64,000 bases of DNA from Pararhizobium sp. YC-54 (lineage in GTDB: Bacteria; Pseudomonadota; Alphaproteobacteria; Rhizobiales; Rhizobiaceae): assembly GCF_025847205.1 (NCBI RefSeq), contig NZ_JAOYTH010000006.1, forward strand, positions 1-64,000, read 5' to 3'. Below, in pieces: positions 21,904 to 37,389 of the stretch. Every line of letters begins with the position of its first letter. Positions within the stretch are counted from its first letter, which is position 1. Position numbers and translations under genes: made by a program. The notes under the pieces are model-generated. The model saw only the letters and a list, made by a program, of their open reading frames with translations. It was not told the origin of the DNA and made no database searches.

Positions 21904-22051
21904 CGCTGCGGGTACCCAACTCGTTCTTGAGCGGGCCGCGTTCCTTGTCAATCGGATGCCGCTTTGCGGAATTGCCATGTTCGAAACGGCATTCCTCCTT
22001 GAGGACGCCGTAGAAGGCCGTTCAGCAGCGTGGGAATAAGCCTAAGGGCGG

Positions 22052-23119
22052 TCAATCACGGGAGTGAGGAGACGCGTTTTTAGACGGCAATGCATCGTCG
22101 GTGGAGGGGTTCGCATTCTGCAAGTCATGCAAACGCTTTATCGTCGCTTCAAAACTGGATGGAGCGCCGGTAGCAGGATCGAAATACCGTGGATAGAGCA
22201 AATAACTTGCCGCAAAAATCTCGCCAATTGTCAGTTTCCTTCGCCTTCTCGGATTCGTCTGACGGTCATCGGTGAGACCCCAGCCCGCGTAGAAAGGCAA
22301 GCCAAAGCACGTCACCCTCTTGCCTCGCAGCAGCGCCTCAAATCCCATCAGCGAAGTAATAGTGTAGACGTGATCAATCGTTTCAAATGCATCGGCCGGG
22401 GCGATATCCTCCCTTAGAATGACACATATATCGGCAACATCTGCCGGATCAGAAACCCCGGCTCGCGTGCCATGCAGTACCTCTGGGTGAGGCTTGTAGA
22501 TAACTTGCGCGTCCGGATTCTCCTGCGCTGCAAACCGCACAAGATCATTGTTGGTCATCGCGCGATCACAACCGAGGCGAATGGAGGCATCCGTTTCAAC
22601 CTGTCCGATGACCAGGACACGTTTCCTGTCTTTGTGGCCATACAGCGCCGGAATGTTCGCTGCCACCCCTAGATTGTATTTGCTGATGCGATTTTTCATC
22701 AACAAATCCATGCCCCGTTCTGCTCGCTGCATGAGCAGGTCGTCACCGGCAAAATCATAGGTGCTCAAGATAACTTCGAGGTCGGACGGTTTGGTGGCAT
22801 CAAAATACGGGGTTCGGGAATCAACCGTTAGCGAGGCTGGCGCGCTCCCGTACGCACCAAGCGAGACGGAGCGGACAAAGCCGTCTTCGACGTGCCGAAA
22901 CGGGATTCGGAAGAGTTTGCAGAAGGTCTTTAGAAAGGGAGGGTACTTAAAACCCCAGACATAGACCTCAGCTCTCCTGGCCAAGAGGATTCGCAACGGC
23001 CAAGCCTCGCAGAGAATTACCCAGCGTTTACGACTAACGGCAACGCAGCGGCGGTCGAAAAACCAGCGCGGCAGATAGTCCTTCCAAGGGGCAAAGCCGA
23101 AGAAAAATGCCTTTTTCAT
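22052..23119 (-). CDS. KpsC-like capsule glycosyltransferase (single beta-Kdo-transferase-type module)
   Basis: The 355-residue protein resembles one half of KpsC, which builds the short Kdo linker on the lipid anchor of group 2 capsules. Diagnostic stretches are RHVEDGFVRSVSLGAYG, YFDATKPSDLEVILSTYDF, RVLVIGQVETDASIRLG, VIYKPHPEVLHGTRAG and TITSLMGFEALLRGK. Full KpsC has two such modules (about 670 residues), so this is a single-module version. Its start overlaps the stop of the upstream DUF6716-like gene (ATGA), and it ends the neuB-neuA operon. Confidence 0.82.
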   Translation of the reverse strand: MKKAFFFGFAPWKDYLPRWFFDRRCVAVSRKRWVILCEAWPLRILLARRAEVYVWGFKYPPFLKTFCKLFRIPFRHVEDGFVRSVSLGAYGSAPASLTVDSRTPYFDATKPSDLEVILSTYDFAGDDLLMQRAERGMDLLMKNRISKYNLGVAANIPALYGHKDRKRVLVIGQVETDASIRLGCDRAMTNNDLVRFAAQENPDAQVIYKPHPEVLHGTRAGVSDPADVADICVILREDIAPADAFETIDHVYTITSLMGFEALLRGKRVTCFGLPFYAGWGLTDDRQTNPRRRRKLTIGEIFAASYLLYPRYFDPATGAPSSFEATIKRLHDLQNANPSTDDALPSKNASPHSRD

Positions 23120-24369
23120 CGCTGTTTTCTACGTCTGACGGTGGAAACCAACCTGGCCTTTCCAATTGCCGAAAAGACTGACGCCCATATCGAATTCGGC
23201 TTCTGGCGGACTTGATACTTCCTGGCGAGGACATGTTCGACATCATTCGCGCTATAAAGATGCGCACGGAGCCCGGATGACATTTCAGCTTTCAGCGAGA
23301 CATCGCCGATGGTCCGGCGTGGTTCCCTTGCCATCTGCAGTGCTTCATCGATTAAAGCTTCGACTGTCTGGTGAGGGTCGCAAACATGGTCCGACAGCCA
23401 ATCCTGATTGGGTTTGATGTCAAACGGGAAATTGAGTTCGGCAAAAGTGCGGATAAGACCTGACCGGAAGAAATAATGCAGTCCGTAATCGTCATGTGCG
23501 CCGAAATCGCCAATAATCGCGGTCGGAACGCCGGCGTGAATTGCCTCCGCCGAAACGGTGGAACAGACAGTGAGGCAATGCGAGGCTCTGCCCAGAAGGC
23601 AGCTCGCCTTTTCCGATGTCAACGACAAATTACCAGGCCAACCACCACACTGTGCGGATGCCCTCTCAAGCAGAGGCCCGATCGGCTCCCACGTCCGGTG
23701 AAGTGCGGCGCCCTTGCCGGCGGTGCGGGGCTTCACCACAAACTGATGCTGCGGGAAACGCATGGCCAGGCGAACGAGCTGCTCGGCCAGAAAAAAACGC
23801 TCGTCGTGATATAGCGGTACGACAGCCTGCTCGAAGAAGACTATCGGTCCATCGTCGGCGTCCGCCTTCCGCTCCACTCGCTGTAGAAGAGGCGCCACAC
23901 CAAACAGGCGGGCATTCTTGCCGTCCATGCCAAACGCTTCGCACATTTCTTGATAAGCAGTGACATCGCTCCGGCAATTCAACCACAGCAAATCGCTAGC
24001 ACTCCGCATGGAGAACCCATCAAAGCGATATCGTAGCAGAAGGCCGGGATAGACCGAAATGACGAGAGGCCTTCGATCTCCGAGAGACCGAAGATGATGC
24101 ATCATCCGCCGCGTGGACAACCCCTCCAGGCACGAAAGCACAATATCGTAGGGACCAAATTCTCCAGCAGCGGAGCCTTCGCCAATTTCGATCCAACGGA
24201 CCACAGATCCGGGTACAAGCTCTGCAATTTGGCTATCGGTTATCTGTGTCGCTCGGCGCGCCCGGACCAGCGCATATTCGACTTCGCATCCCGCCCTGAC
24301 GAAGAAGGGGGCAATTATGCCCCCTATGTTCAGAAAGGAATCGTAGGACGCCAGCACCAGGACGCGCAT
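23116..24369 (-). CDS. DUF6716-like putative glycosyltransferase of the polysaccharide locus
   Basis: The 417-residue protein starts MRVLVLASYDSFLNIGGIIA, which resembles DUF6716 proteins that sit beside nonulosonate genes. It looks like a GT-B fold. A substrate-lobe region contains PIVFFEQAVVPLYHDERFFL and QHQFVVKPRTAGKGA, and a nucleotide-lobe pattern reads TVCSTVSAEAIHAGVPTAIIGD. A transferase role is likely but donor and acceptor are unknown. One base separates it from the neuA stop, and it overlaps kpsC by four bases, so all four genes form one transcription unit. Confidence 0.7.
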   Translation of the reverse strand: MRVLVLASYDSFLNIGGIIAPFFVRAGCEVEYALVRARRATQITDSQIAELVPGSVVRWIEIGEGSAAGEFGPYDIVLSCLEGLSTRRMMHHLRSLGDRRPLVISVYPGLLLRYRFDGFSMRSASDLLWLNCRSDVTAYQEMCEAFGMDGKNARLFGVAPLLQRVERKADADDGPIVFFEQAVVPLYHDERFFLAEQLVRLAMRFPQHQFVVKPRTAGKGAALHRTWEPIGPLLERASAQCGGWPGNLSLTSEKASCLLGRASHCLTVCSTVSAEAIHAGVPTAIIGDFGAHDDYGLHYFFRSGLIRTFAELNFPFDIKPNQDWLSDHVCDPHQTVEALIDEALQMAREPRRTIGDVSLKAEMSSGLRAHLYSANDVEHVLARKYQVRQKPNSIWASVFSAIGKARLVSTVRRRKQR

Positions 24370-24370
24370 G

Positions 24371-25543
24371 TCATTGCACCACGAGATTGTTCGCGATCAG
24401 GTACTCGCTCAGCTCACGCAAAGCACCCTGCCCACCCTGTTTCGCCAGTTTGACACCCGCAATTCCAAGTACGTCGCGATGTGCATCAGACGGGGCGAAG
24501 CTCATGCCGCACGCCTGCATGCATTCCACATCATTAAGGTCATTTCCGACATACGCAATTTCCGACCAGTCAAGCTTCTGCTCGATACGCCAGGCATCAA
24601 GCGCCGGCAGCTTATTGTGAACATGGTGCTGTACGTCCATATTGAGCTTGACAGCACGGGCCTTCACAACGGGATTTTGCTCACGCGAAAGAATGAGAAG
24701 CCGCAAGCCGCGTTTCTTCAACGCCTCGATACCCATGCCGTCACTGCGGCTGCAGCGCACGGATTCGGACCCATCCTGGTGGACGATCACGAGATCATCC
24801 GTGTGCACTCCGTCAAAATCAGTCACCAGCGCCTTAATCTTTTGGCCTGGAACAGTCATGAGCGGGTCATGCAATCGGGCAAACGCCTCAGCGACTTCCC
24901 AGTCTGCAGGTGTGTCGATTTCCACAGGGGGCATATCGACGGGCACAAGCACTGTACGTCCGCAGAACCGATTCTGGGTTTCAAGAAACTCGGGAACGCG
25001 CATCGCGTAAACAGCGCCGGTCTCGAGGTACCTTGGCGTCATGTCCTGCCGGCGCAGGCGCGGTTTGGTTTCGTCGTGGGTGATCCCGACTGCTGAACCA
25101 TCGTCGGCGATTTGCCAAATAAAACCGTGGTCTTCAGTCGCCGCAAAGGCGCTGGTTGCGTTCTGTTCGACGATTCCGCGGACAATGGCGTCAATATGAG
25201 CGGATGTCGTAAAGGGAGATGTACATTGAAGAAAGACAATGATGTCGGGCATCGCCCCATCGGTTTCCGCGACATGTCTCAATGCATGCAACAAGGCGGA
25301 TTCAGAACTTGCTGTTGAGCCTGAAATGTCGTCTGGCCTTAGAATGGCATGCGCGCCGTATCGTGTGCCGACCTCGAGAATCTCACGCGAATCGGACGAT
25401 ACATATACGTCAGAAATGTACTCTGACCCTACAGCCGCGAGAACTGCGCGCCCGACGAGCGGTATTCCGTTGAGGGGTTTTATGTTTTTGCCGGGGAGGC
25501 CGAGCGACCCCCCCCTTGCGGGAATAACAGCAATAGCTTTCAT
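24371..25543 (-). CDS. neuA: Fused CMP-nonulosonate cytidylyltransferase and HAD phosphatase (NeuA-HAD)
   Basis: The 390-residue protein has two enzymes in one chain. Residues 1-225 are a cytidylyltransferase: IPARGGSLGLPGKNIKPLNG is the nucleotide-binding loop, and FLQCTSPFTTSAHIDAIV and ETGAVYAMRVPEF follow. Residues 230-390 are a KdsC-type HAD phosphatase with motif I TDFDGVHTDD and motif IV GNDLNDVECMQA. Activation to CMP-sugar plus removal of a 9-phosphate would fit a pathway running through a nonulosonate 9-phosphate. It directly follows neuB with no spacing. Confidence 0.88.
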   Translation of the reverse strand: MKAIAVIPARGGSLGLPGKNIKPLNGIPLVGRAVLAAVGSEYISDVYVSSDSREILEVGTRYGAHAILRPDDISGSTASSESALLHALRHVAETDGAMPDIIVFLQCTSPFTTSAHIDAIVRGIVEQNATSAFAATEDHGFIWQIADDGSAVGITHDETKPRLRRQDMTPRYLETGAVYAMRVPEFLETQNRFCGRTVLVPVDMPPVEIDTPADWEVAEAFARLHDPLMTVPGQKIKALVTDFDGVHTDDLVIVHQDGSESVRCSRSDGMGIEALKKRGLRLLILSREQNPVVKARAVKLNMDVQHHVHNKLPALDAWRIEQKLDWSEIAYVGNDLNDVECMQACGMSFAPSDAHRDVLGIAGVKLAKQGGQGALRELSEYLIANNLVVQ

Positions 25544-26473
25544 TCAGGAAGCGTGCCTTATCTGGGCGCCGTGCTTTTCCTCACGCCACTTCAGCTTCTC
25601 GCGCTGAACGAGTTCGACGTCCAGCATTTCCTTTTCCTTGTAGGTCACCGCGCGGCGAACATTTTTCAGGTCGCGGCAAAGGCGACGCATACCGTCCGGC
25701 TCAAGACTTGCGGCATGGTCGGTACCCTTCCAGGTGCGATCCAGGGTGAAGTGCCGCTCGACATATTCGAACTCGCCCTTCCCATAGATATGGCGGCCGA
25801 TGATGCCGGCCGTCATGGCGGCGACGTCGGCGGCGATTCCAAGATGATGTCCGGAGAAGCCTACCGACTTGACCTTGTCGCCGTAACGCTCCTGCAGGCG
25901 ATTGATTTCCAGAACGCAAATATCCTGGAACGCTACCGGATAACCGGACGTGCATGCATAGATGACCAGGTCCTTGGCACGGCCCCGCTCCTCGTAGAAG
26001 CGAACCAGGCGATCGGTTTCGTCGTGCGTCGTCATGCCGGTCGAGACATGGATTTCGCCATCGAAATTTTTGCAAAGGAAGTCTTGCAGCACATAGTGCT
26101 GGTTGGTGGCCGACGGAAGCTTAATCAGGTTCGGCTTCAGCGTGACAATTTCCTGCGCCGAAGTCAGATCCCACACCGAGGTCGAATAGTCGATGCCCAT
26201 TGAGCGGCATTCTTCCTGCAATTCCCTATGCTGACCTACAGAGAATTCCAGAAATTCGCGATGCTCGCCGTAGGTGTCGCCATAAGCGTTGGCGGGAACA
26301 GGGTGCGGCCGATCATATTCTTCGGCAGTCAGCAATTCCCTGTTGTTACGTTTCTGAAACTTGGCAACATGGGCACCGCAAACCTTTGCGGCAACTGTGA
26401 TCAGCTCTTTGGCAATATCCATATTGCCCATATGATTGCAGCCGATTTCGGCGATTACCTTGATTTCGGACAT
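25544..26473 (-). CDS. neuB: N-acetylneuraminate-synthase-family enzyme (nonulosonic acid synthase) without SAF domain
   Basis: The 309-residue TIM-barrel enzyme condenses phosphoenolpyruvate with a six-carbon sugar to make a nine-carbon acid. Family motifs are IAEIGCNHMGNMDIAKELI, AHVAKFQKRN, IKLPSATNQHY, VSTGMTTHDE and VGFSGHHLG. Standard NeuB proteins are about 340-350 residues because of a C-terminal antifreeze-like SAF domain. Here the chain ends soon after the barrel (KEKEMLDVELVQREKLKWRE), so that domain is missing. Being first in the operon with neuA-HAD, it defines a sialic-acid-like branch. The exact acid is unproven. Confidence 0.88.
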   Translation of the reverse strand: MSEIKVIAEIGCNHMGNMDIAKELITVAAKVCGAHVAKFQKRNNRELLTAEEYDRPHPVPANAYGDTYGEHREFLEFSVGQHRELQEECRSMGIDYSTSVWDLTSAQEIVTLKPNLIKLPSATNQHYVLQDFLCKNFDGEIHVSTGMTTHDETDRLVRFYEERGRAKDLVIYACTSGYPVAFQDICVLEINRLQERYGDKVKSVGFSGHHLGIAADVAAMTAGIIGRHIYGKGEFEYVERHFTLDRTWKGTDHAASLEPDGMRRLCRDLKNVRRAVTYKEKEMLDVELVQREKLKWREEKHGAQIRHAS

Positions 26474-26748
26474 TCAGTTTTCCTAGGTTTCAATTCAAAT
26501 ATGTGGCCCGCTCGAGAACGATAGCAGCCGACCAAGTCGGCGGCATCTATAAAGTTTCGTGTTTAAAAAAGCAATCCAGCGGCGTTACCAACTCCGCGCC
26601 GGCACCGATAAGACACAGCCCGTCCGCACTCGCCGGTGCCGACATCCCGCCAGAATTGACACGACGATCATAGTCAAGCCGATGCGCGTCAACCGCGTTG
26701 CCTAGCTGCGCTGGCAGTGTTGCGTTCGGAATCCCCATCCCGCCGATA

Positions 26749-28467
26749 TCAAGTGGTGGTGGGCTGCACAACTCCGTCCGTCGCCCATGCGCTGAACGAT
26801 GCATCTCTTGTAGCCGTCACTTCCCTAATGAGGGTGACATTCGACGGCATGTTATTGGCGGTCAGGAACGGGACCGAGGCATGATTGTTTCGCCCATGTG
26901 TCCCTACAAGTTTAATGACCGCGCCAGTAACGTCCGCCCCGATTTGGATCGGGCTATACGAACGCTGTTGGCCAATCCCCTGCCAAACGACGTTGGTAAA
27001 ACAGATATTGTCATACGCTCCATCGCCGATAAAATTAGCACCGGCTTCCAACGTCGGCCCTATAGTGCCGCCGATAAAGAATATGTCACTGATGGGGTTG
27101 GCTGCACTTGATGTCATACGAATCCCGTGATCCGCCAGCCGATTGCCGCTGGCACCCATATACCCCGCAGCATTGAAATTCATGATGCAGCAGTTGCGCG
27201 ATCCCGGCTGCAACTCCACGACGCGGGACCCTTTGTAGAGCGAATATCTGCACTGGATGCCGGTCGCTACAAGGTCGATCATCACACCCTTGATCAGGCC
27301 ATCGTTGGCGCCAACATCAGCGATGAGGCCATTGATCTCAATACCACCGATATTGAGCGCATATCTCCCGGTGTTCTGGACGAACGGGGCATTCATCGCA
27401 TGAGCGCGATTGTTGTTGAAGCGGAAGCCCCGCGTGCCGGTATCAGGACCATCGATCGACGCGCTGCCGCGGGGCCTCCACGAGGCCGGTTGGTCCATCT
27501 CAATAGCAGCTATGTTCATGTCGGAAACCGTATTTCCGCTGAACTCAAGACCTCGGCCTTTAACAAGCGCCGCCCGCCCCATCCGATTTATGCCCATGTT
27601 GATGACGCGAGCGTCGATGTCTCGATACTCATCAACCGTGCGCTCAAACCAGAACGCGGTGGTCGTTGTATTGGTGGAACTGCCACGGATGCAAAAGCCG
27701 GATGCCTCGAAATTGTCATGACCGACTTGGAACACAATAGGCAGGTCATCGTCATCGATGATGATGCAGCTATTTGCCTCGCCAGACGGGCGGATACTCT
27801 CGATCGTCGCCCCGATCTTGGCACTTTCATTGGTCACGCTGATCGTGTCATTAACGTGCAGTGTTACCCCCGTAAGGTCAATCGTTTGACCCGACGACAT
27901 GGCCGATTGGAGAGCTGCCGTATCCACCGACGCATTACCAGCCCCGACGCTGGTCAGTGATGAGTCGAACGCCTTGACGTGCCATGCGCCACGAGCTTTA
28001 TGGTAGTTAAGCTTCAAGCCTTCGCCGGTAACGACCTGCCCAGATGGATCAAGATGTTCCTTGATCGCCTCGGCATCGCCCAGCCGATCTGCCGAAACAT
28101 CGCGCACACACCACCACGTCCGCGCACCGCCGTTCGAGGTAATCGTGTCCTTCGAACCGTTACCAACGCTTGTCCAAGTCCGGCCCAACCCATCGTCAGC
28201 GATGGACGAACCACGCGTTTCGATCACGGTTATACCGGCGTCAATAGTGGCCGAAGACACGATTGCTTCGGTGGCAAAGACGAGATTGTTGTTCGCTGCA
28301 GCTTGCGCCACATTGGCCCACCCCTCCGCGACAGCCGCACTGTTGCCCGGATCCGGCTTATTGACGAGTTTGTTATCGGCGTAGAAAGGCACGGCGCCCG
28401 TTAACTGGGTGGCGGCGCTATCGCCGGCGGCGAACACCCCGGCCGAAAGAAAGGATCTGCGCTTCAA
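26749..28467 (-). CDS. Right-handed beta-helix (pectin-lyase-fold) protein, tailspike-like
   Basis: The 572-residue protein opens with a twin-arginine-like sequence (MKRRSFLSAG), but the hydrophobic stretch behind it is interrupted by Asp, so export is uncertain. The body (about 180-540) carries repeating strand-turn units typical of parallel beta helices: GLEFSGNTVSDMNIAAIEM, GFRFNNNRAHAMNAPFVQN, ISDIFFIGGTIGPTLEAGA. The N-terminal third looks like phage tailspike or K-antigen depolymerase heads (VNKPDPGNSAAVAEGWANV). Possible roles are polysaccharide lyase, hydrolase or binder for the neighbouring glycan. I cannot identify catalytic residues. Confidence 0.65.
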   Translation of the reverse strand: MKRRSFLSAGVFAAGDSAATQLTGAVPFYADNKLVNKPDPGNSAAVAEGWANVAQAAANNNLVFATEAIVSSATIDAGITVIETRGSSIADDGLGRTWTSVGNGSKDTITSNGGARTWWCVRDVSADRLGDAEAIKEHLDPSGQVVTGEGLKLNYHKARGAWHVKAFDSSLTSVGAGNASVDTAALQSAMSSGQTIDLTGVTLHVNDTISVTNESAKIGATIESIRPSGEANSCIIIDDDDLPIVFQVGHDNFEASGFCIRGSSTNTTTTAFWFERTVDEYRDIDARVINMGINRMGRAALVKGRGLEFSGNTVSDMNIAAIEMDQPASWRPRGSASIDGPDTGTRGFRFNNNRAHAMNAPFVQNTGRYALNIGGIEINGLIADVGANDGLIKGVMIDLVATGIQCRYSLYKGSRVVELQPGSRNCCIMNFNAAGYMGASGNRLADHGIRMTSSAANPISDIFFIGGTIGPTLEAGANFIGDGAYDNICFTNVVWQGIGQQRSYSPIQIGADVTGAVIKLVGTHGRNNHASVPFLTANNMPSNVTLIREVTATRDASFSAWATDGVVQPTTT

Positions 28468-28487
28468 GGCAAACTCCCATCGGGATA

Positions 28488-28509
28488 AAGCCCGCTTTAG
28501 TGCGGGCTC
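28488..28509 (-). terminator. Candidate hairpin terminator downstream of the hydrolase-like gene
   Basis: AGCCCGC and GCGGGCT form a 7-bp stem with a 6-base loop. On the minus strand TTTATCC follows. A tiny minus-strand frame (28497-28601, 34 codons) ends inside it. The stem would separate the hydrolase-like gene from the beta-helix gene. Confidence 0.4.
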
Positions 28510-28614
28510 AGGTTTTGGAAGACTTCAATGGGCACCATTGCAATGTTGCGTTCCTCAGACTCGATAATCGCGCCTTTGCACAACAGCATCGCCAGTAGCA
28601 TCCGGTCCGAACGA

Positions 28615-29472
28615 TTACTCGCTGAAGACGCTGATCGCGGAAGAACCGGAAAGTGCCTCCTGGCAGAGCGTTGCAAGGCTCTTCGTTCGGGGCAAGGTTA
28701 GTATTTCATCCACCATCGCACTCGACCGCAGAGAACTTTGAAGGTCCTGCTGCTTCTTTGCTGCTTGGGTCACGCTATCGACTATATCAATCACGGCTGC
28801 TCGGTCTGTGTTATCCACCAGAAATGGCAGAACAACCGAGTGCGTCTTTAGATGTAGCCGAACCAGCGCAACATTCTCGCCTGAGACGCTCTCGGCTTCT
28901 GACCGGTCGTCCGCGTTGAGGTTGCCAAAGATGATGGTCGAGCGTGTAGTCGAAGGTACGTGCGTGACATCGCCATATCGAGCCAACGCCTCGGCTATGG
29001 TCTTGTCCTCCAATGCTTTTTTTAGCAGGCTTTTGTAGCTTGGAAACCGAACCCTCGGGTTTTCGGGGTGAATTCGCGTCTGAGGGCCGAAGCACAGACT
29101 GGAATATTGACGGCCGCTGTCCTTGGCCGAACACAATGATGCCATCAGCAATGCACCAAAACCACCTTTTGAGCATCCCGTAAAGAGCACTCTTGCGACC
29201 GCCAAGCCTGTCGCGATGTCCACAATCGCTGATGAAACCTCATCGGCGCCGAGGGTAAAATATGCGTCTTTCTGGTCGGCCAGATGAAGTACGGACGAGT
29301 GAAACTCGGTCCTATAGAAAGCAAAGCTTTTCTTCTGGGAGAGCACTACGATCAACTCTTCAGAACGCTCATTGACGCGAAGCTCAGCATTTATCCAGGG
29401 TGGAAGAGTGATTTCCATCTTAGCTAGCATCTGGTCGTCATCCTCGCAAACAATCCCGACTGTTGAGGGCAA
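28615..29472 (-). CDS. Predicted alpha/beta-hydrolase-like protein of the polysaccharide locus
   Basis: The 285-residue protein is not one I can assign to a named family. It contains a nucleophile-elbow-like GCSKGGFGALLMAS (about 98-111) after a hydrophobic strand ARVLFTGC, and a late acidic segment SSTIIFGNLNADDRSEAE that could supply an acid. This order fits an alpha/beta hydrolase, perhaps an acyl esterase or polysaccharide-modifying enzyme. The start may be one of several ATGs in the first 20 codons. It is in the accessory island between the phage-like ABA-sandwich gene and the beta-helix gene. Confidence 0.5.
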   Translation of the reverse strand: MPSTVGIVCEDDDQMLAKMEITLPPWINAELRVNERSEELIVVLSQKKSFAFYRTEFHSSVLHLADQKDAYFTLGADEVSSAIVDIATGLAVARVLFTGCSKGGFGALLMASLCSAKDSGRQYSSLCFGPQTRIHPENPRVRFPSYKSLLKKALEDKTIAEALARYGDVTHVPSTTRSTIIFGNLNADDRSEAESVSGENVALVRLHLKTHSVVLPFLVDNTDRAAVIDIVDSVTQAAKKQQDLQSSLRSSAMVDEILTLPRTKSLATLCQEALSGSSAISVFSE

Positions 29473-29539
29473 AGAACTGCTTTAAACGGAGTTGACGCGC
29501 CGCTGTCAACGCAACGACTCGGTTGAGACGTAATTTTTG

Positions 29540-29929
29540 TCAATCTGACTTTTGACTCCTGAGGAACATATCGCTCAGAGCTGCGGCACAGAGTGCCAAT
29601 GGTGGAGTTGAAGCCGAAAACCGCGGGCCGTCGTTTATGCGCGCTGTTGCGCCATCGCCCCCCCATGTGAATCCGGCGGTGCATTTCGGATCGACCAGCC
29701 GCGCCAAGCTTTGTGCAGCAGTGATGCTTCTAGTGAACGACGGTACCGGAGTTTTCCTCGAAGCTCCCGGGAACAGCCAGACAACCTTTTTTCGCTTTTC
29801 ACCTGTCTCGGTTGTTCCGTGTGTCACCCTGCGCTCATAGCCGACAGCCAGCGCAATTTTGAGGTCGAGTTTCCGGTCTGGCCCCGAAGCATGTTGAAGC
29901 TCCAGAATTATCTCTGTCACCGACGGCAT
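29540..29929 (-). CDS. Phage ABA-sandwich-domain-like small protein
   Basis: The 129-residue protein has the DLKIALAVGYERR opening, a central WLFPGA and PSFTRSITAAQSLARLVDP segment, and an ending SASTPPLALCAAALSDMF. That order matches the small ABA-sandwich proteins common in rhizobial prophages, which usually end with ATPALALCAAAL. Function is unknown. Its presence next to a tailspike-like gene hints that part of the island came with a phage. Confidence 0.6.
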   Translation of the reverse strand: MPSVTEIILELQHASGPDRKLDLKIALAVGYERRVTHGTTETGEKRKKVVWLFPGASRKTPVPSFTRSITAAQSLARLVDPKCTAGFTWGGDGATARINDGPRFSASTPPLALCAAALSDMFLRSQKSD

Positions 29930-30229
29930 GTGCGGCTGTCCTCTTCCCGTATACTGAAAGGGTCGGTCGGTAGCGAGTTTGACCCCACGTCTAAATCTCT
30001 AAATCGGTTGATGGTGCCTGTCTATCGCCTGCGTTTCTACAGTTCACTGCCACGATAGCCCTGTTCATAACCACACCATTCAAAGGAAAACACAATAACA
30101 TGACGCATCAAGAGGCAGGGTTTTTGCATCATGGAATGGGAGGGCTGCTGGGTCACCGTCTATCAAGACGGAGTGGAGTCTGGATGATCGGCTAGGCCAC
30201 ATCGCCGGTCGGGGTCCCATGTCCGTGCG
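29930..30229. other. Intergenic stretch with a diverged repeat segment
   Basis: I see no convincing coding sequence here. A segment at 29977-30032 (CCACGTCTAAAT...GTTGATGGTGCCTGTC) resembles 31590-31625, just beyond the 3' end of the glycosyltransferase fusion gene. The surroundings look like degenerate DNA with base composition unlike the chromosomal core. Confidence 0.4.
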
Positions 30230-30433
30230 TCAAGACCAACCTGCATATAGTTGAAAAAGCATAATCGAAGACGCTCCTTCGGGCGTCACACCATGAATTC
30301 CGCCAATGAAATGACCGCCAAAATCCGCGGCAGCAATCAGCCACGCAAAACATCCGGATTCACCGGCGAATGAAGGCCTCCGATTGAGCCTGGGACTTCT
30401 GCCGGGACTGATCAGAAGTGCTCGATCGACCAT
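30230..30433 (-). CDS. Hypothetical 67-residue protein, translationally coupled to the pyruvyl transferase gene
   Basis: The ATG overlaps the stop of the upstream gene in a TGATG arrangement, which is the main reason to list it. The product has one hydrophobic stretch (CFAWLIAAADFGGHFIGGI) and no motif I recognise. It could be chance reading downstream of the operon. Confidence 0.3.
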   Translation of the reverse strand: MVDRALLISPGRSPRLNRRPSFAGESGCFAWLIAAADFGGHFIGGIHGVTPEGASSIMLFQLYAGWS

Positions 30434-31518
30434 CAGACAAGAGTAGCTGCGAAATCCGCAGCCTGGGCGCGCAGTTGCTCGCCAAGAGCGGCGCGCTTTT
30501 CCGCGATTGAAGCGGCCAGCCGGTCCTCGTTATGGATGAAGAAATTGAGTTTGCCAATCAGCGCATTTGCCATGTCGTCGAGCTGTGACCGCGTCAGGTT
30601 AGCACTGTGCGGCACAGCGCACAGAAAATCGTTCGACCCGAAATAATCCATTGGCATCCCGCGGCGCGCCGACATGCCAACGAACGCTGCAGGTGCGTCG
30701 AACGCGAGGAACGGCAGCCAGCCGTGTAACCGCTTTCCGAAGGCGAAGCGGCAGCCGGTATACCGCTCGCCGAACGACGGGTGCTTCAACAGCGCTTCGT
30801 TGAATGCAATGTTGAATTCCTTTCCAGAAAGTTCCGCCTGCAGCATCTCGCCGAAGAGCGGCAGGTCAATGTCGATGGGCGGGAACAAATCCAGCAGCAT
30901 GCGGTTTGAGTCTCCAGCGGCATTGGTCATCGAGCGCACCTCGAGGCCTTCGGACTCGGCGTACGCCTTGAACCGTCGCAGCGGGTGGTCGCTGAAATTC
31001 TCCTCTTTGAAGAGGAACGCGTCGAAGTTCACGACGACAACGTCGCGCTTGCGCGGTTTGATATCGAGCAGCGTGTCAGTGAAGAGGGATGCACAGGGAG
31101 ACCACTCGGGGTGAGTCGATGGGTCAACTTCACGGATAAACTCGGATTCCCGCTGCGCGCGAACAATAATCTTAGGCGCGCGTGCTGTAACGCGGCGAAC
31201 AGCCTCGATTTCTTCATCGGACGGTTTCGCTAGAATTCCCGTCGACCAGAGATGGAACTTCGAGTGTTGGAAGCGATCCCATTGCTTAGCGAGTTTTTGA
31301 TGCAGGTGCCGCGACGAGTTGGTTTGTACGAACATCCCCCCAGGACCAATGATGACGTTCCCCGGCGTCTCCTGCCCGTCGCGGATATAGACCGGTTCGC
31401 TTACATAGCGGAAGTCCAGATCCACGAGGCCTTCGAACAGCTTCCGAGTCACTTGGTAAAGAAGGGCATCTCCGGCGTTGCCACGGATGCCACACGTAAC
31501 CCAAAGTGCCTTCTTCAT
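30433..31518 (-). CDS. Polysaccharide pyruvyl-transferase-family protein
   Basis: The 361-residue protein fits the CsaB/WcaK-type family that adds pyruvate ketals to glycans. An N-terminal Gly/Asn motif (GIRGNAGDALLYQV) and a glycine-rich loop (NVIIGPGGMFVQTN) are followed by a C-terminal donor lobe with FAFGKRLHGWLPFLAFDAPAAFVGMS, in which the RLHG histidine is highly conserved. The ATG at 31518 was chosen; an ATG six codons upstream is possible. It lies in the island between the sialyltransferase-GT4 fusion and the phage-like genes, so it may modify the same polymer. Confidence 0.82.
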   Translation of the reverse strand: MKKALWVTCGIRGNAGDALLYQVTRKLFEGLVDLDFRYVSEPVYIRDGQETPGNVIIGPGGMFVQTNSSRHLHQKLAKQWDRFQHSKFHLWSTGILAKPSDEEIEAVRRVTARAPKIIVRAQRESEFIREVDPSTHPEWSPCASLFTDTLLDIKPRKRDVVVVNFDAFLFKEENFSDHPLRRFKAYAESEGLEVRSMTNAAGDSNRMLLDLFPPIDIDLPLFGEMLQAELSGKEFNIAFNEALLKHPSFGERYTGCRFAFGKRLHGWLPFLAFDAPAAFVGMSARRGMPMDYFGSNDFLCAVPHSANLTRSQLDDMANALIGKLNFFIHNEDRLAASIAEKRAALGEQLRAQAADFAATLV

Positions 31519-31631
31519 CGTGCGTTCTTTTCTCATGTACTAAATTGTTTGCTGGTCAGAAAAACGAGCTGAACGGGGGTGGATTCGAACCACGTCTAAA
31601 TTGGTCGATGATGTCTGTCCACCCCGCGCCT

Positions 31632-34439
31632 CTAGTCAGAGACGAGTTTTTCCAGGAGTTCAAAATTCTGTTTCTTGAAATTCTGAACAGAAAAATGCTT
31701 ATTGAGCACATCAGTATTGAGCTTCTTCAGTCGCGAGATATTTTTCACGCTGAAAATATCATCATTGGGGAATGTGATATCTTCCGAGAAGATAACGTTG
31801 TCAGCCTTGTTGAAGTCTATATTCCCGCCAACCTTCGAAAGAACAATTGCGCAATTGTTCTTCATGGCCTCAAGTGTCGCGAAATCAAATATCGATATTC
31901 TATGCAGCATGATATAGACATCCGAGACATGAAGCGCGTTCATCACCTCTTTATGAGGTATTTTTTTCAGGTATGTGAACTCAAAATTGTCGTGTTTTTT
32001 AGAAATATTCTTTGCGCGTAGAAGGATATCGTCCCTCATTACCCCATCACCGATGCAAATCCATCTAACGCGGGTTTGCGTTACGGGCATCATCCGCTCG
32101 AAGAATTCCAATACCCGGTCCTGCCCCTTTGCCGCAGTAAGGGTCCCCACGCTTGTAAAAGTCAGACCGTCAAAGGCAGGGATTTTAAGATTTGCCAGAT
32201 CCGGTCGAGCCGCACCTGGCAAAATGGTATTGTAAATACTCGGCCCAATGCTGACTTCGTCAAGATTAGCGCCCCTATATTCATCCGAAAAATACATATC
32301 CCGCGCGCCGTCGCTAGGAAATACAACGTATTTTGCCTTTTTCATTGCAACGGCTTCGACTGCCTTCAGTCTCTTTATCAAAGAGGGCTGAAGTTGATGG
32401 CCGAAGTTCAGCATCTGCGTCACGAACGAACCTTGGAAATGCCAATCCAGCACATAGCTTTTGCCCGCCAGCGCAAGGCCGTAGGCGCACCCTAGGTCAT
32501 GCGTAAAATAGTGCCCATATCGTCCGGTTTTACAAATATCGAGAGCAAAGCTGGCGCCACTTGCAAGATCGCCGTACCAATCTGGATAAACATGTTTCTC
32601 CCGGAAGTGGTAGTCAATCGAGCGCTCATGGAAATATGGCCCCAGAAGCGCCTTCTGCAGCCACAGGACACCTCCGGGACCGCCGGTCGCGCCTCTATTG
32701 GGGCGATAGGCCAAGGCGGCTATGCTCGTTCCATTTAAGCTGCTGTCAGCTTTGATGCTGCGCGCTTTCCGCCCGACCTGCCTTAGAGAGCGATTGAACA
32801 GTGCATCAAATAGATAACCGGAGCGCTTGGCACGTATTTCTTGAGACCATTTCTTATAGGCCCAGTTAGCCAGATTGTAATACGAGCGCGGGTGCAGAGG
32901 ATGAGTGAACAACATTATGAGCCAGTAATCGAGAGCTTTTTTAAAGTCGGCTTTTTTCTCGAAAAGTCGAGCATTTCCAGCCAGCGCCGGGATTGATAGC
33001 GGCTTTGCCTCTGCTATCCGCAGAATATCCGCCTCGTTATTCGGGATTGTGGGATTAAACCACCTCCTGATCGGTTTCAAAAGCGTTGAGACCAGAATAC
33101 TGTAGGCTGCAGGCCTGTAGGGATTGAGGGCCAAGCCATGCCAGGCTGACTTCACACTCAGTCCGAATTTTTCCTCTTTCTGGGCGCCAGCCAATCTGAG
33201 AACGGAGTTAAACGGCCGTTGCTGTATTCGCCGTTGTATCGCCCGAAGAGGAAGCTTCATCGCGCCTTCTAAATCGAGCGCCGGCGGTTTTTGCGCATAA
33301 ATTCGTTTTAGCAAGTCGCGCTGCGGCTTAAACGACGAAAAAACCTCTCTCGCCACTTCCTCCGGCTTATCCTCATTTGCCTGCAGGCGCCGCAATAATG
33401 AGCGAAGCGTCGGAATTACAACCGCACAAAAATTTCGCGCATTTCCAAAGTCACCGTCGCCGGGGGTTAGCTTCTTCAGGTCGTATTCGTCAATTGTAAA
33501 GGCAGGAATCCCATACAGAGTGGGTATGGTCACCAGCGCGGACGACGCGTAGGAAAACACCGCACACCACTCGTAGGATGAAGCAATACGCTCAACCGGC
33601 ACATTGTGGGCATCGACGATATGGAATTTTTGACCGACAAATGCCTCCGTCAAAAGGTCCGGCAGGATGCTGATATCTCTTGGATGCTTCACGAAATAGA
33701 CGGAGAATCCAGAAAGAAGAATGGATGAGATAGAGGATAGATAATGATTCAGCAGATTATCCATAGACATATCTGCTCGTGCAAATTGCCCGATAAACAA
33801 TACTTTATTTTTGTCGGAACCGTCCTCAATTAAATGACCGTCAATCGGAATTTTTTCTATTGCCGTGCGTAGGTATTTCGGATCAGGAACAATGACCGGC
33901 ACATCATGGGCCTGATAGTCAAAAAGAGGCGGCAACCCCATAAAGTTAAAACTTACATATCCGTCGAGACGGGAAAGGAAATATTCTTCATTAGTGTTCA
34001 AGTTCTTCTTGTTATGATGGCGGAAATAGGAATTTAGCCCCTCTTCAATGCAATATGCCTGGGCATTAGGATACATCGATAGCAGCAGTCTGGATTTACT
34101 AGAGAAAAGATGAGGGACGATAATCTCGTCAAAATCAACATCCCCGAGCAGTCCCCTGATGAGGGCCTCAGATTCCGCATCGCTTTTTTCGGCCAGGTCA
34201 CCATTGGTATAATTTTCCGGCGTGGAATTTTCGTACACACAGTAATTTATACAAAAAATATTCTGGAAATCCGCAAATTTACTAGAAAACTCATCAAAGG
34301 AATCTAGATAAGATTGATTGCAGACATGAGAGATGTGCAGCAGTGTATCTTCACACTCTCCCTGCTCCCATCGACTTTCAATATAAGCAACGCTTAAAAT
34401 GGTGGACCACTTACCCGTAGCAAGAATCAGCCGTTTCAT
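31632..34439 (-). CDS. Bifunctional glycosyltransferase: N-terminal sialyltransferase-like domain fused to C-terminal GT4
   Basis: The 935-residue protein has an N-terminal domain (1-380) with the three short motifs of bacterial GT-B sialyltransferases: E132-E133-G134 in YCIEEGLNSYF, H252-P253 in VKHPRD, and S299-S300 in SYASSALVTIP. A helical linker (about 380-620) follows. The C-terminal GT4 domain (about 620-935) shows SVGTLTAAKGQDRVLEFFER and IFDFATLEAMKNN, with Ser in place of the first Glu of the usual EX7E motif. The gene is visibly AT-rich. The layout recalls meningococcal W/Y capsule polymerases but with the domain order reversed. It probably builds an alternating nonulosonate-hexose polymer. 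Confidence 0.78.
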   Translation of the reverse strand: MKRLILATGKWSTILSVAYIESRWEQGECEDTLLHISHVCNQSYLDSFDEFSSKFADFQNIFCINYCVYENSTPENYTNGDLAEKSDAESEALIRGLLGDVDFDEIIVPHLFSSKSRLLLSMYPNAQAYCIEEGLNSYFRHHNKKNLNTNEEYFLSRLDGYVSFNFMGLPPLFDYQAHDVPVIVPDPKYLRTAIEKIPIDGHLIEDGSDKNKVLFIGQFARADMSMDNLLNHYLSSISSILLSGFSVYFVKHPRDISILPDLLTEAFVGQKFHIVDAHNVPVERIASSYEWCAVFSYASSALVTIPTLYGIPAFTIDEYDLKKLTPGDGDFGNARNFCAVVIPTLRSLLRRLQANEDKPEEVAREVFSSFKPQRDLLKRIYAQKPPALDLEGAMKLPLRAIQRRIQQRPFNSVLRLAGAQKEEKFGLSVKSAWHGLALNPYRPAAYSILVSTLLKPIRRWFNPTIPNNEADILRIAEAKPLSIPALAGNARLFEKKADFKKALDYWLIMLFTHPLHPRSYYNLANWAYKKWSQEIRAKRSGYLFDALFNRSLRQVGRKARSIKADSSLNGTSIAALAYRPNRGATGGPGGVLWLQKALLGPYFHERSIDYHFREKHVYPDWYGDLASGASFALDICKTGRYGHYFTHDLGCAYGLALAGKSYVLDWHFQGSFVTQMLNFGHQLQPSLIKRLKAVEAVAMKKAKYVVFPSDGARDMYFSDEYRGANLDEVSIGPSIYNTILPGAARPDLANLKIPAFDGLTFTSVGTLTAAKGQDRVLEFFERMMPVTQTRVRWICIGDGVMRDDILLRAKNISKKHDNFEFTYLKKIPHKEVMNALHVSDVYIMLHRISIFDFATLEAMKNNCAIVLSKVGGNIDFNKADNVIFSEDITFPNDDIFSVKNISRLKKLNTDVLNKHFSVQNFKKQNFELLEKLVSD

Positions 34440-34485
34440 AATCTATGACCGCCTTCGCTTTTAATCAAAAGTTTTGGTTATTACA

Positions 34486-35634
<1,149 letters not shown>

Positions 35635-36039
35635 TTATGCCACCTCTTGGACCACGCTGCCCCTGCATAAGCATTTTGAGGGGTTTGACAACCCTACCGG
35701 CGGCCATCTGATTGCTCACAGTAACCTACACCACCTTGTTGACCGGCCTAACCGGGCGCAGGATTTGGGTGGCTCTACCTCGCCGCATCAATGTTGACAT
35801 TCACGTTGACAGACCGGCTTTCTGCAGCAAGCCCCTACTACCAACTGTAAGTCGGCGGAATACGTCAAATCTGAGTCCGGAATAAAAATATTCGGCGATA
35901 TGTGAGCCGAACCGCAGCGACCGACGCCGTCATCCAACAGATCGACAAGGCCAAACCCAGAAGGAAAAGCGTAAAACTGCCTGTAAAACCGTCTATTTGA
36001 GACGCTTCTCATCCATGGCTCAACGCCCCGAGAAACAAG
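35635..36039. other. Intergenic region between glf and tRNA-Gly
   Basis: This is the edge of the polysaccharide island. No coding sequence is supported. A short direct repeat of GTTGACA occurs near 35794-35810. It presumably carries the promoter of the minus-strand glf operon. I find no clear copy of the tRNA 3' end that would mark an attachment site. Confidence 0.45.
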
Positions 36040-36113
36040 TGGAGCGGGTAGCGGGAATCGAACCCGCACGATCAGCTTGGGAAGCTGACAAGCTACCACT
36101 ACATCATACCCGC
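36040..36113 (-). tRNA. tRNA-Gly (anticodon CCC)
   Basis: The 74-nt cloverleaf has acceptor arms GCGGGTA and TACCCGC, D-arm GTAGTGGTAGC, anticodon stem TCAGC/GCTGA with loop TTCCCAA, T-arm GCGGGTTCGATTCCCGC and an encoded CCA end. Anticodon CCC reads glycine GGG codons. It borders the accessory island. Confidence 0.95.
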
Positions 36114-36181
36114 CTTGCGCCCGAGGTTTCCACCAAGCACGGCTGCCTGTCAAGGCGGCAGTCGGGTTTCGGGCTGTGTAT

Positions 36182-37279
36182 TTACGCCGAGCGGAAATGC
36201 TTGGAGAGTTTGAGGCCCTGCGCCTGATAGTTGGAACCGAGGCCAAGGCCATAGAGACCTTCGGGGCGCTCCATCATGTGTTCGTAAACCAGGCGGCCGA
36301 CGATCTGGCCGTGCTCGAGGATGAACGGCACCTCGTGGCTGCGGACTTCGAGGACGGCGCGGCTGCCTTTGCCGCCGGCCGAAACATGGCCGAAGCCCGG
36401 ATCGAAGAAGCCGGCGTAATGGACGCGGAATTCGCCGACCAGCGGATCGAACGGCGTCATTTCGGCGGCATAGAGCGGCGGCACATGCACGGCTTCGCGC
36501 GAGACGAGGATGTAGAATTCGTCGGGATCGAGGATCAGTTCATCGCCGCCGCGGCTGTAGAGCGGCTCCCAGAAATCGAAGATGCCATGCTCGGCCTTCT
36601 TGTCGACATCGACGACGGCGGTGTGGTGCTTGCCGCGGTAGCCGATCAGGCCGTCGGCACCGGTGCCCTTGAGATCGATCGAGAGCGCAATGCCGGCACC
36701 GGAGACATTCGGCGTTTCGCTGGCAACGAGGACATCGCTTTCGTGCAGCGCCATCACTTCGGTTTCGGTCAGGAGCGCATGGCCGATGCGGAAGCGGATC
36801 TGCGACAGCCGCGAGCCGCGCCGGACGATCACCGGGAAGGTGCGCGGGCTGATTTCCAGATAGAGCGGGCCGCAATAGCCGGCGGGGATCTTGTCGAATT
36901 CCTGGGCCCGGTCGGTGATGACGCGGGTGAAGATATCAAGGCGGCCTGTCGAGCTCTTCGGATTGGCCGAGGCCGACATTTCCGGCGAAAGATCAAGGCT
37001 TTCCATCAAGGGAACGATATAGACGCAGCCGGTTTCAAGCACCGCCCCTTCGGAGAGATCGATGACGTGCAGCTTCAGCCGGTCGAGCTTGTCGGCCACC
37101 AGGTGGCCGGGACCGGGCATGAAGCTGGCGCGCACGCGGAAGGCCTTGGAGCCGAGCCGCAGGTCGAGGCTGGCCGGCTGGATCTGGTCGGTATCGAGCT
37201 TTGCCTCGCTTTTCAACCGCCCCGCATCAAACAGCGCTTTAATGGCGCGATCGGCTAGAATGCCTGTGGCCCTCGTCAT
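36182..37279 (-). CDS. 2'-deoxycytidine 5'-triphosphate deaminase (double-domain type)
   Basis: The 365-residue protein consists of two dCTP-deaminase/dUTPase-type jelly-roll halves, as in the long alphaproteobacterial form. IQPASLDLRLGSKAFRVRAS opens the first, and TFPVIVRRGSRLSQIRFR with NPKSSTGRLDIFTRVITD carry the conserved core. The second half contains FYILVSREAVHVPPLYAAEM and FDPGFGHV. The enzyme makes dUTP for thymidylate synthesis. The start at 37279 follows an AAGGAAGATGG ribosome-binding site. It is divergent from metZ. Confidence 0.88.
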   Translation of the reverse strand: MTRATGILADRAIKALFDAGRLKSEAKLDTDQIQPASLDLRLGSKAFRVRASFMPGPGHLVADKLDRLKLHVIDLSEGAVLETGCVYIVPLMESLDLSPEMSASANPKSSTGRLDIFTRVITDRAQEFDKIPAGYCGPLYLEISPRTFPVIVRRGSRLSQIRFRIGHALLTETEVMALHESDVLVASETPNVSGAGIALSIDLKGTGADGLIGYRGKHHTAVVDVDKKAEHGIFDFWEPLYSRGGDELILDPDEFYILVSREAVHVPPLYAAEMTPFDPLVGEFRVHYAGFFDPGFGHVSAGGKGSRAVLEVRSHEVPFILEHGQIVGRLVYEHMMERPEGLYGLGLGSNYQAQGLKLSKHFRSA

Positions 37280-37389
37280 TCCATCTTCCTTTTGCCGCAA
37301 CCGGCCCGTCATAACCCAAATTGTCCCTGTGACATATCTTGTTGCTCACGGGAATTGACGCAAGCGCCGCCAATCAGTAAATACTGACT

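Follow-up and report, generated by a model that had tools for sequence, protein, structure and literature searches.

What polymer, if any, is made by a protein that joins a sialyltransferase (ST)-like domain and a domain resembling glycosyltransferase family 4 (GT4) in one chain? This question is raised by a gene at positions 31632 to 34439 of a 64,000-nucleotide stretch of the genome of Pararhizobium sp. YC-54 (contig NZ_JAOYTH010000006.1; the whole stretch is hereafter called the window). We consider it probable (about 0.6) that the fusion protein is a bifunctional single-chain polymerase of a K-antigen-like capsule composed of the nonulosonate Kdn and a hexose, perhaps galactofuranose (Galf).

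In the Pfam scan, the fusion protein matched PF07388 (A-2_8-polyST) at residues 4-316 (E 5.8e-15; 56.1 bits against a cut-off of 23.3) and PF00534 (glycosyl transferases group 1) at residues 760-881 (E 9.3e-9; 35.5 bits against 26.4). The AlphaFold model had a pLDDT of 86.6 and a pTM of 0.79. We searched 5.8 billion proteins by shared words and scored the 7994 candidates that had most words in common with the query; 15 proteins passed E 1e-3, among them the window protein itself (P0001). Its 14 relatives were 899-955 residues long, aligned over 98-100% of the query with 33-83% identity, and all contained both Pfam domains. We aligned them with the window protein (P0001 was omitted as identical) and found the order ST, linker, GT4 in all 15 rows. 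A second search with a profile of the fusion recovered 13 of the earlier 15 proteins and no new ones, and no relatives were found in viral_contigs. The parts of the protein, with conservation among the 15 aligned rows, are listed below (TPR, tetratricopeptide repeat; MhPST, the polysialyltransferase of Mannheimia haemolytica).

31632 to 34439, minus strand: fused ST, TPR-like and GT4-like protein, 935 amino acid residues, ATG start
33330 to 34439, minus strand: N-terminal CMP-nonulosonate (poly)sialyltransferase-like domain, residues 1-370, from PF07388 and predicted fold
34038 to 34046, minus strand: E132-E133-G134 motif, invariant (15/15); E133 is the counterpart of the MhPST catalytic base E153
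33681 to 33686, minus strand: H252-P253 motif, invariant (15/15); counterpart of MhPST H291
33591 to 33593, minus strand: E283, invariant (15/15); by spacing, the MhPST ribose-binding E323
33540 to 33545, minus strand: S299-S300, with S299 invariant and residue 300 Ser or Thr (15/15); MhPST S339-T340
32742 to 33329, minus strand: TPR-like helical linker, residues 371-566, from TPR-chain profile matches, helices in the model and dN/dS 0.278
31635 to 32741, minus strand: C-terminal GT4-like (PF00534) GT-B domain, residues 567-935
31863 to 31904, minus strand: HRISIFDFATLEAM motif, residues 846-859, with E857 retained and Ser849 at the first Glu of EX7E

The three motifs that the initial annotation had assigned to the N-terminal domain were all recovered in the alignment, and R254 was also invariant in the 15 rows. 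D/E-D/E-G and HP are described as motifs of bacterial polysialyltransferases (PMC2169525). In the description of MhPST, E153 is the proposed base and E152 its support, E323 contacts the ribose, and H291 and S339/T340 hold the phosphate (PMC5517516). Since no PDB sequence matched the N-domain profile at E 10, the mapping of residues onto MhPST relies on motifs and spacing. The spacing from His to the ribose-binding Glu is 31 residues in the fusion and 32 in MhPST, and that from His to Ser is 47 and 48; the spacing from base to His is unlike (119 and 138). In the predicted model, the N-domain takes up the GT-B fold seen in the GT38 enzyme of known structure, and the structure that it matches best is that of a homopolymer-forming polysialyltransferase; the fold comparison proposed in the initial annotation therefore came out in favour of a polysialyltransferase fold. 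Matches in a viral structure library were to generic glycosyltransferases and had low TM-scores, and none of 4016 candidates was a single-domain relative of the N-domain by phmmer at E 1e-3. By profile and predicted fold, the N-domain is PF07388/GT38-like. A beta-Kdo transferase identity was considered and rejected, as PF07388 was present and PF05159 absent.

The linker gave profile matches to designed TPR chains at residues 418-530 (down to E 1.3e-15, summed over the repeats of the target), and the Pfam scan of the fusion found no TPR domain in it.

The C-terminal domain was expected to be a GT4 enzyme. The PF00534 profile and the GT-B fold were indeed found; the EX7E motif was not, as all 15 fusions have S849-x7-E857 instead. 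We named the domain GT4-like because Ser849 stands in place of the first Glu of EX7E in the fusion. Residues 847-859 are invariant in the 15 fusions, and H846 occurs in 14 of them (Gln in P0013). When aligned with GlgA, HRISIFDFATLEAM lies opposite SYFEPFGLVALEAM, and Ser849 falls in the column of the GlgA Glu (EPFGLVALE). The Arg of the usual GR...KG motif corresponds to Thr766, and this position is Thr or Ser across the family. In a wider alignment of the GT4 subfamily (eight rows, including relatives from Gastranaerophilales, Prevotella, Roseburia and Lachnospiraceae), Ser849 is retained in every row. The segment RISIFDFATLEAM is invariant in the 15 fusions, and shows only I/V, F/L and L/I exchanges in the eight subfamily rows. 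To judge from the record titles, the organisms of these rows span four phyla.

We estimated selection by the Nei-Gojobori method with our own script in one pair, the window protein and the 83% identical protein of a sister genome (Rhizobiales bacterium AFS073149; locus L005, the same contig as G002:C76). The dN/dS values were 0.082 for the ST domain, 0.278 for the linker and 0.086 for the GT4 domain, the last with a dS of 1.03, which is close to saturation. From this purifying selection in one genome pair, both catalytic domains look functional. The pairwise distances of the two domains among the 15 sequences were correlated (0.93), a value of the kind that common ancestry alone yields. The ST and GT4 trees were concordant for close groups and discordant at some deep branches; therefore, rare domain exchange may have occurred. 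An assembly chimera was rejected on the basis of the 14 full-length relatives and the correlated distances.

The fusion is encoded on a low-GC island: the seven 2-kb bins between 22001 and 36000 had GC contents of 0.485-0.564, as against 0.586-0.660 for the remaining 25 bins of the window. The neighbouring genes, in the direction of transcription and with the fusion between the first and the second, are as follows (HAD, haloacid dehalogenase).

34486 to 35634, minus strand: Glf, UDP-galactopyranose mutase (PF03275, E 4.2e-80; TIGR00031, 319.6 bits against a cut-off of 303.75)
30433 to 31536, minus strand: polysaccharide pyruvyl transferase-like protein (PF04230, E 1.8e-6), directly downstream of the fusion
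28615 to 29472, minus strand: 285-residue protein, weakly XcbB/CpsF-like (NF033892, E 0.0042, far under the cut-off), conserved in L005
26749 to 28467, minus strand: 572-residue protein, 93% identical in L005
25544 to 26473, minus strand: short NeuB, 309 residues (PF03102 only, E 1.2e-56; no SAF match)
24371 to 25543, minus strand: NeuA cytidylyltransferase (CTP_transf_3, E 1.7e-20) fused to a putative Kdn-9-phosphate/KdsC-type HAD phosphatase (NeuA-HAD)
23116 to 24369, minus strand: DUF6716 putative glycosyltransferase (PF20471, E 2.2e-46)
22052 to 23119, minus strand: Capsule_synth (KpsC/KpsS-like) protein (PF05159, E 6.8e-37)

The gene calls and Pfam bear out the earlier statement that neuA and neuB lie in the same island. 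Glf is directly upstream of the fusion and adjoins it in L005 too, where the pyruvyl transferase-like neighbour is 92% identical. Homologues of the short NeuB, 56-59% identical, were found in loci L006, L008, L012 and L015. Among the PDB entries matched by the HAD part of this NeuA fusion is 3ewi, an N-acylneuraminate cytidylyltransferase. The 285-residue protein bears a GCSKGG motif. For the 572-residue protein, searches of Pfam, NCBIfam and PDB sequences all came back empty; it has a TTG start and, by eye, an N-terminus like that of twin-arginine translocation substrates, and is possibly an exported polysaccharide-acting protein.

Which nonulosonate would be used? Nothing in the genome, which is 99.78% complete in 54 contigs, matched the NeuC model (TIGR03568) at E 1e-3, and other ManNAc routes were not searched; Kdn is therefore the likeliest nonulosonate. 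The same model matched 10 of 14 control genomes, above the cut-off in two. For NeuA-HAD, the best HAD model was the Kdn-9-phosphate phosphatase NF058599 (E 1.3e-27, 96.9 bits). Kdn has been found in a capsular polysaccharide of Sinorhizobium fredii (PMC9000132), and hexose-Kdx repeats are described as common in Sinorhizobium K-antigens (PMC4881576). Kdn is favoured by these sequence comparisons, not proved. A locus on another contig (L030) contains genes for an ABC transporter, two Capsule_synth proteins, a SIS-CBS (KpsF-like) protein and type I polyketide synthases, and one of its proteins is 51% identical to the Capsule_synth protein of the island. This kps-like locus, to judge from its genes, fits a K-antigen export system of the Kps/Rkp kind. 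A protein placed like KpsE in it gave no Pfam match, and was labelled by eye.

The two halves of the fusion were also found apart. PF07388 occurred in 6 of 385 genomes of the class; beyond the genome studied, there were eight matches in five genomes, and five loci (L037 to L041) were examined in context. In two alphaproteobacteria (G264, L037; G154, L038), a stand-alone PF07388 protein (351 and 406 residues, respectively) lies in a three-gene run ST-neuB-neuA, and these NeuBs are 58-59% identical to that of the window. With L040, NeuB and NeuA-like genes accompany PF07388 in three of the five loci. In the case of L040, the NeuB is 30% identical and PF07388 scores just 28.3 bits, level with GT52. 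At positions 7067-15476 of L040 (G222), the gene of this PF07388/GT52-like protein and a gene that by eye looks like that of a flippase are near a gene for a 773-residue CBS-NeuB-SAF-TIM-barrel fusion, which resembles in make-up a Serratia NeuB described in PMC9000132.

The GT4 subfamily was found in seven loci of genome_contigs (L005 to L011), one of which is the sister fusion. In the Gastranaerophilales loci L006 and L008, a stand-alone GT4 gene has the short-type NeuB, NeuA and a HAD phosphatase within 8 kb; L006 also has an amine-oxidase-like gene with no PF03275 match. In L007, a GT52 gene is directly downstream of GT4 and Glf is about 4 kb upstream. In L009 (Roseburia), on a 3.9-kb contig, GT4 is fused to a different N-terminal part that has no Pfam match, followed by a KdsB-like cytidylyltransferase. 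This protein of a metagenome-assembled genome (624-3287, 887 residues, GT4 subfamily C-terminal) has a KAHP motif in its N-terminal part, and is possibly a Kdo counterpart of the fusion. In a wider Prevotella sample, this GT4 was found in 1 of 249 genomes, the source genome itself. The occurrence of stand-alone halves beside a window-type NeuB and NeuA gives added support, at the level of gene context, to the interpretation of the initial annotation, which is borne out in part. Glf proximity was not accepted as proof of Galf transfer, since it is limited to the window, the sister and Prevotella.

We computed the domain identities, the predicted fold, the conserved motif residues, the selection on both domains and the gene context; from these we infer the donor, the alternation, polymerisation, priming and the export route. 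The short NeuB and NeuA-HAD would produce and activate Kdn. The PF07388 domain would transfer a nonulosonate, most likely Kdn, from a CMP donor, with E133 as the base and with H252 and S299/S300 holding the phosphate of CMP. The GT4-like domain would add a hexose, plausibly galactose or, through the adjacent Glf, galactofuranose. By alternation of the two domains, a [hexose-Kdn]n polymer would be formed. The TPR-like segment may space or oligomerise the two sites, or dock partner proteins. Priming of the polymer would take place on a Kdo linker and involve KpsC/KpsS-like enzymes; its export would be through the K-antigen-type ABC system encoded at another site of the genome. A narrower proposal is that the fusion founds a new family of polymerases for an alternating Kdn-galactofuranose capsule, with a GT38-type transferase placed ahead of an HRISIFD GT4-like subfamily specialised for Glf-supplied UDP-Galf; we offer this version tentatively, and regard it as rather doubtful.

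How does such an enzyme compare with known ones? The N. meningitidis W polymerase (NmW) has an N-terminal GT4 domain and a C-terminal GT97 domain (PMC10361700). The initial annotation was right that the order is reversed, since ST precedes GT4 in all 15 fusions. NmW/Y and the fusion share a single chain in which a CMP-nonulosonate transferase and a GT4-type hexosyltransferase are separated by intervening sequence (PMC10361700). Unlike NmW/Y, the fusion has a PF07388 domain with a structural match to GT38, a TPR-like linker and no first EX7E Glu, occurs in a soil alphaproteobacterium, and is likelier to use Kdn than Neu5Ac. E. coli K13 KrkA, a single-chain alternating polymerase, has an N-terminal Kdo transferase (GT140) and a C-terminal ribosyltransferase-like domain, and shares with the fusion a CMP-ulosonate transferase at the N-terminus (PMC12887879). 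However, GT140 is a retaining Kdo transferase and deeply divergent, and the second domain of KrkA is not GT4-like. MhPST (GT38, 5wc6) differs in being a single-domain homopolymer enzyme, with 14% identity. The TagF-like capsule polymerases Cps3D, Cps7D and Cps1B are also multi-enzyme chains, with a TPR domain (PMC11666461, PMC5974469) where the fusion has a TPR-like segment, but Pfam shows no TagF-like domain in the fusion and the overall TM-score to Cps3D is just 0.23. The predicted polymer type and the kps-like export locus resemble those of Sinorhizobium K-antigens, for which hexose-Kdx repeats are described (PMC4881576), whereas the full-length fusion was found in 2 of 26 genomes of its genus. 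In a literature search of open-licence papers (titles and abstract openings), no report of a reversed ST-GT4 fusion was found. New here is how the domains are combined and ordered, within a rare family whose product is plausibly a Kdn-hexose polymer.

Several points weigh against a Kdn-hexose polymerase. Plant C-glycosyltransferases (6lg0 and others) outrank the polysialyltransferase for the N-domain by Foldseek E-value, where 5wcn is at rank 8 and 5wc6 at rank 11, and only the VIA-align Z clearly sets it apart from them. Without the first EX7E Glu and the canonical Arg, the GT4-like domain may work slowly or depend on a donor that is unusual. A residue rule in EX7E for galactose or glucose is described for NmW/Y (PMC10361700); owing to the atypical EX7E, it is not simply transferable to the fusion. 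The linker, given as 240 residues in the initial annotation, did prove helical, but is about 195 residues long (about 371-566) and TPR-like. NeuA-HAD falls below the NF058599 cut-off of 180 bits (the corresponding HAD of L006 scores 174.3), and the restriction of the ManNAc search to NeuC counts here as well. L041 is without NeuB or NeuA-like genes and L039 is a 3-kb contig; L010 and L011 gave no match for NeuB, NeuA or Glf, and L007 and L009 none for NeuB. The reversed order is not unique in principle, because KrkA has its ulosonate transferase first. Finally, the fusion is rare. It was absent from the sampled genomes other than the two of its genus: 1 of 398 genomes of the phylum sample had it at E 1e-20, which was the genome itself, and a sample of 61 relatives gave two full-length matches (own and G002) and two weak partial GT4 matches. 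It is therefore unlikely to be a general rhizobial K-antigen polymerase.

A bifunctional enzyme need not be a polymerase. The fusion might add one nonulosonate-hexose unit, for example as a transition or priming enzyme or as a terminal decoration of lipopolysaccharide or capsule, and leave the main polymer to a different polymerase, namely the DUF6716 or the Capsule_synth protein. Capsule-priming transition transferases have been described (PMC11666461), and the island has other putative transferases (DUF6716, Capsule_synth and pyruvyl transferase-like), but a chain in which two active sites are fused, conserved together and set apart by a TPR-like spacer is closer to known polymerases than to single-step enzymes, and we judge this explanation unlikely. 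It is improbable that the donor is another CMP-ulosonate (Neu5Ac, Pse, Leg or Kdo), a change that would leave the two-domain logic intact: the lack of a NeuC match, the best HAD model (though under its cut-off) and the presence of PF07388 rather than PF05159 argue against it, whereas the second, SAF-containing NeuB in the sister's cluster, the KdsB-like neighbour of the Roseburia fusion, and the frequent Kdo or pseudaminic acid described for rhizobial K-antigens (PMC4881576) point towards it. We find it very improbable that the N-domain alone makes poly-Kdn in the manner of GT38 homopolymer enzymes while the GT4-like domain just primes or caps the chain. The best structural match and the naming of PF07388 for polysialyltransferase activity would suit this, but the acceptor is not deducible from the fold, stand-alone GT4 relatives accompany a GT52 gene or NeuB/NeuA clusters, and purifying selection is equally strong on both domains in the one pair. 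A catalytically dead GT4-like domain, kept as a scaffold or acceptor-binding module, is hardly credible: the replaced Glu and Arg would permit it, but RISIFDFATLEAM is almost unchanged throughout and dN/dS is low.

If the fusion is a Kdn-hexose polymerase, nonulosonate and hexose transferases have been fused into one-chain polymerases more than once, in differing orders and from different families. It would provide a single enzyme for the synthesis of a Kdn-hexose polymer, and a concrete polymerase candidate for the hexose-ulosonate K-antigen of a rhizobia-like bacterium. It would also mark out a subfamily of GT4-like domains that has a non-canonical active site and a role predicted by its partner genes; thus, its donor specificity is directly testable. 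In this subfamily, the 759-residue Lachnospiraceae proteins of L010 (2761-5040) and L011 (6412-8691) have the HRISIFD domain first, and that of L010 has two PF00534 stretches.

The island is flanked on one side by a gene for dCTP deaminase (36182-37312) and on the other by one for a GT2 enzyme (19969-21903). We surveyed 24 genomes of the genus (the genome itself and G002 were left out) on the island side of the deaminase gene, mostly over about 20 kb; three stretches reached a contig end, one after just 4 kb. By tblastn at E 1e-15, all 24 stretches lacked matches to the nine genes of the island. The distance between the deaminase and GT2 genes, approximate because it was taken from the best tblastn pieces, was measurable in 20 of the 24. 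It ranged from about 0.15 to 8.3 kb (less than 1 kb in 12, less than 3 kb in 17, and 5.8-8.3 kb in 3), against 14.3 kb (21904-36181) in the window and about 35 kb in the sister. The stretch between the two genes is thus a site of insertions that vary in content. In the sister, the order and direction of Glf, fusion and pyruvyl transferase-like genes are kept; at a distance of about 20 kb follows the Capsule_synth-DUF6716-NeuA-NeuB cassette, with the SAF-containing NeuB in between. This second nonulosonate set between the cassettes (L026, 11869-16107) consists of the SAF-domain NeuB and a BNR-repeat (sialidase-like) protein.

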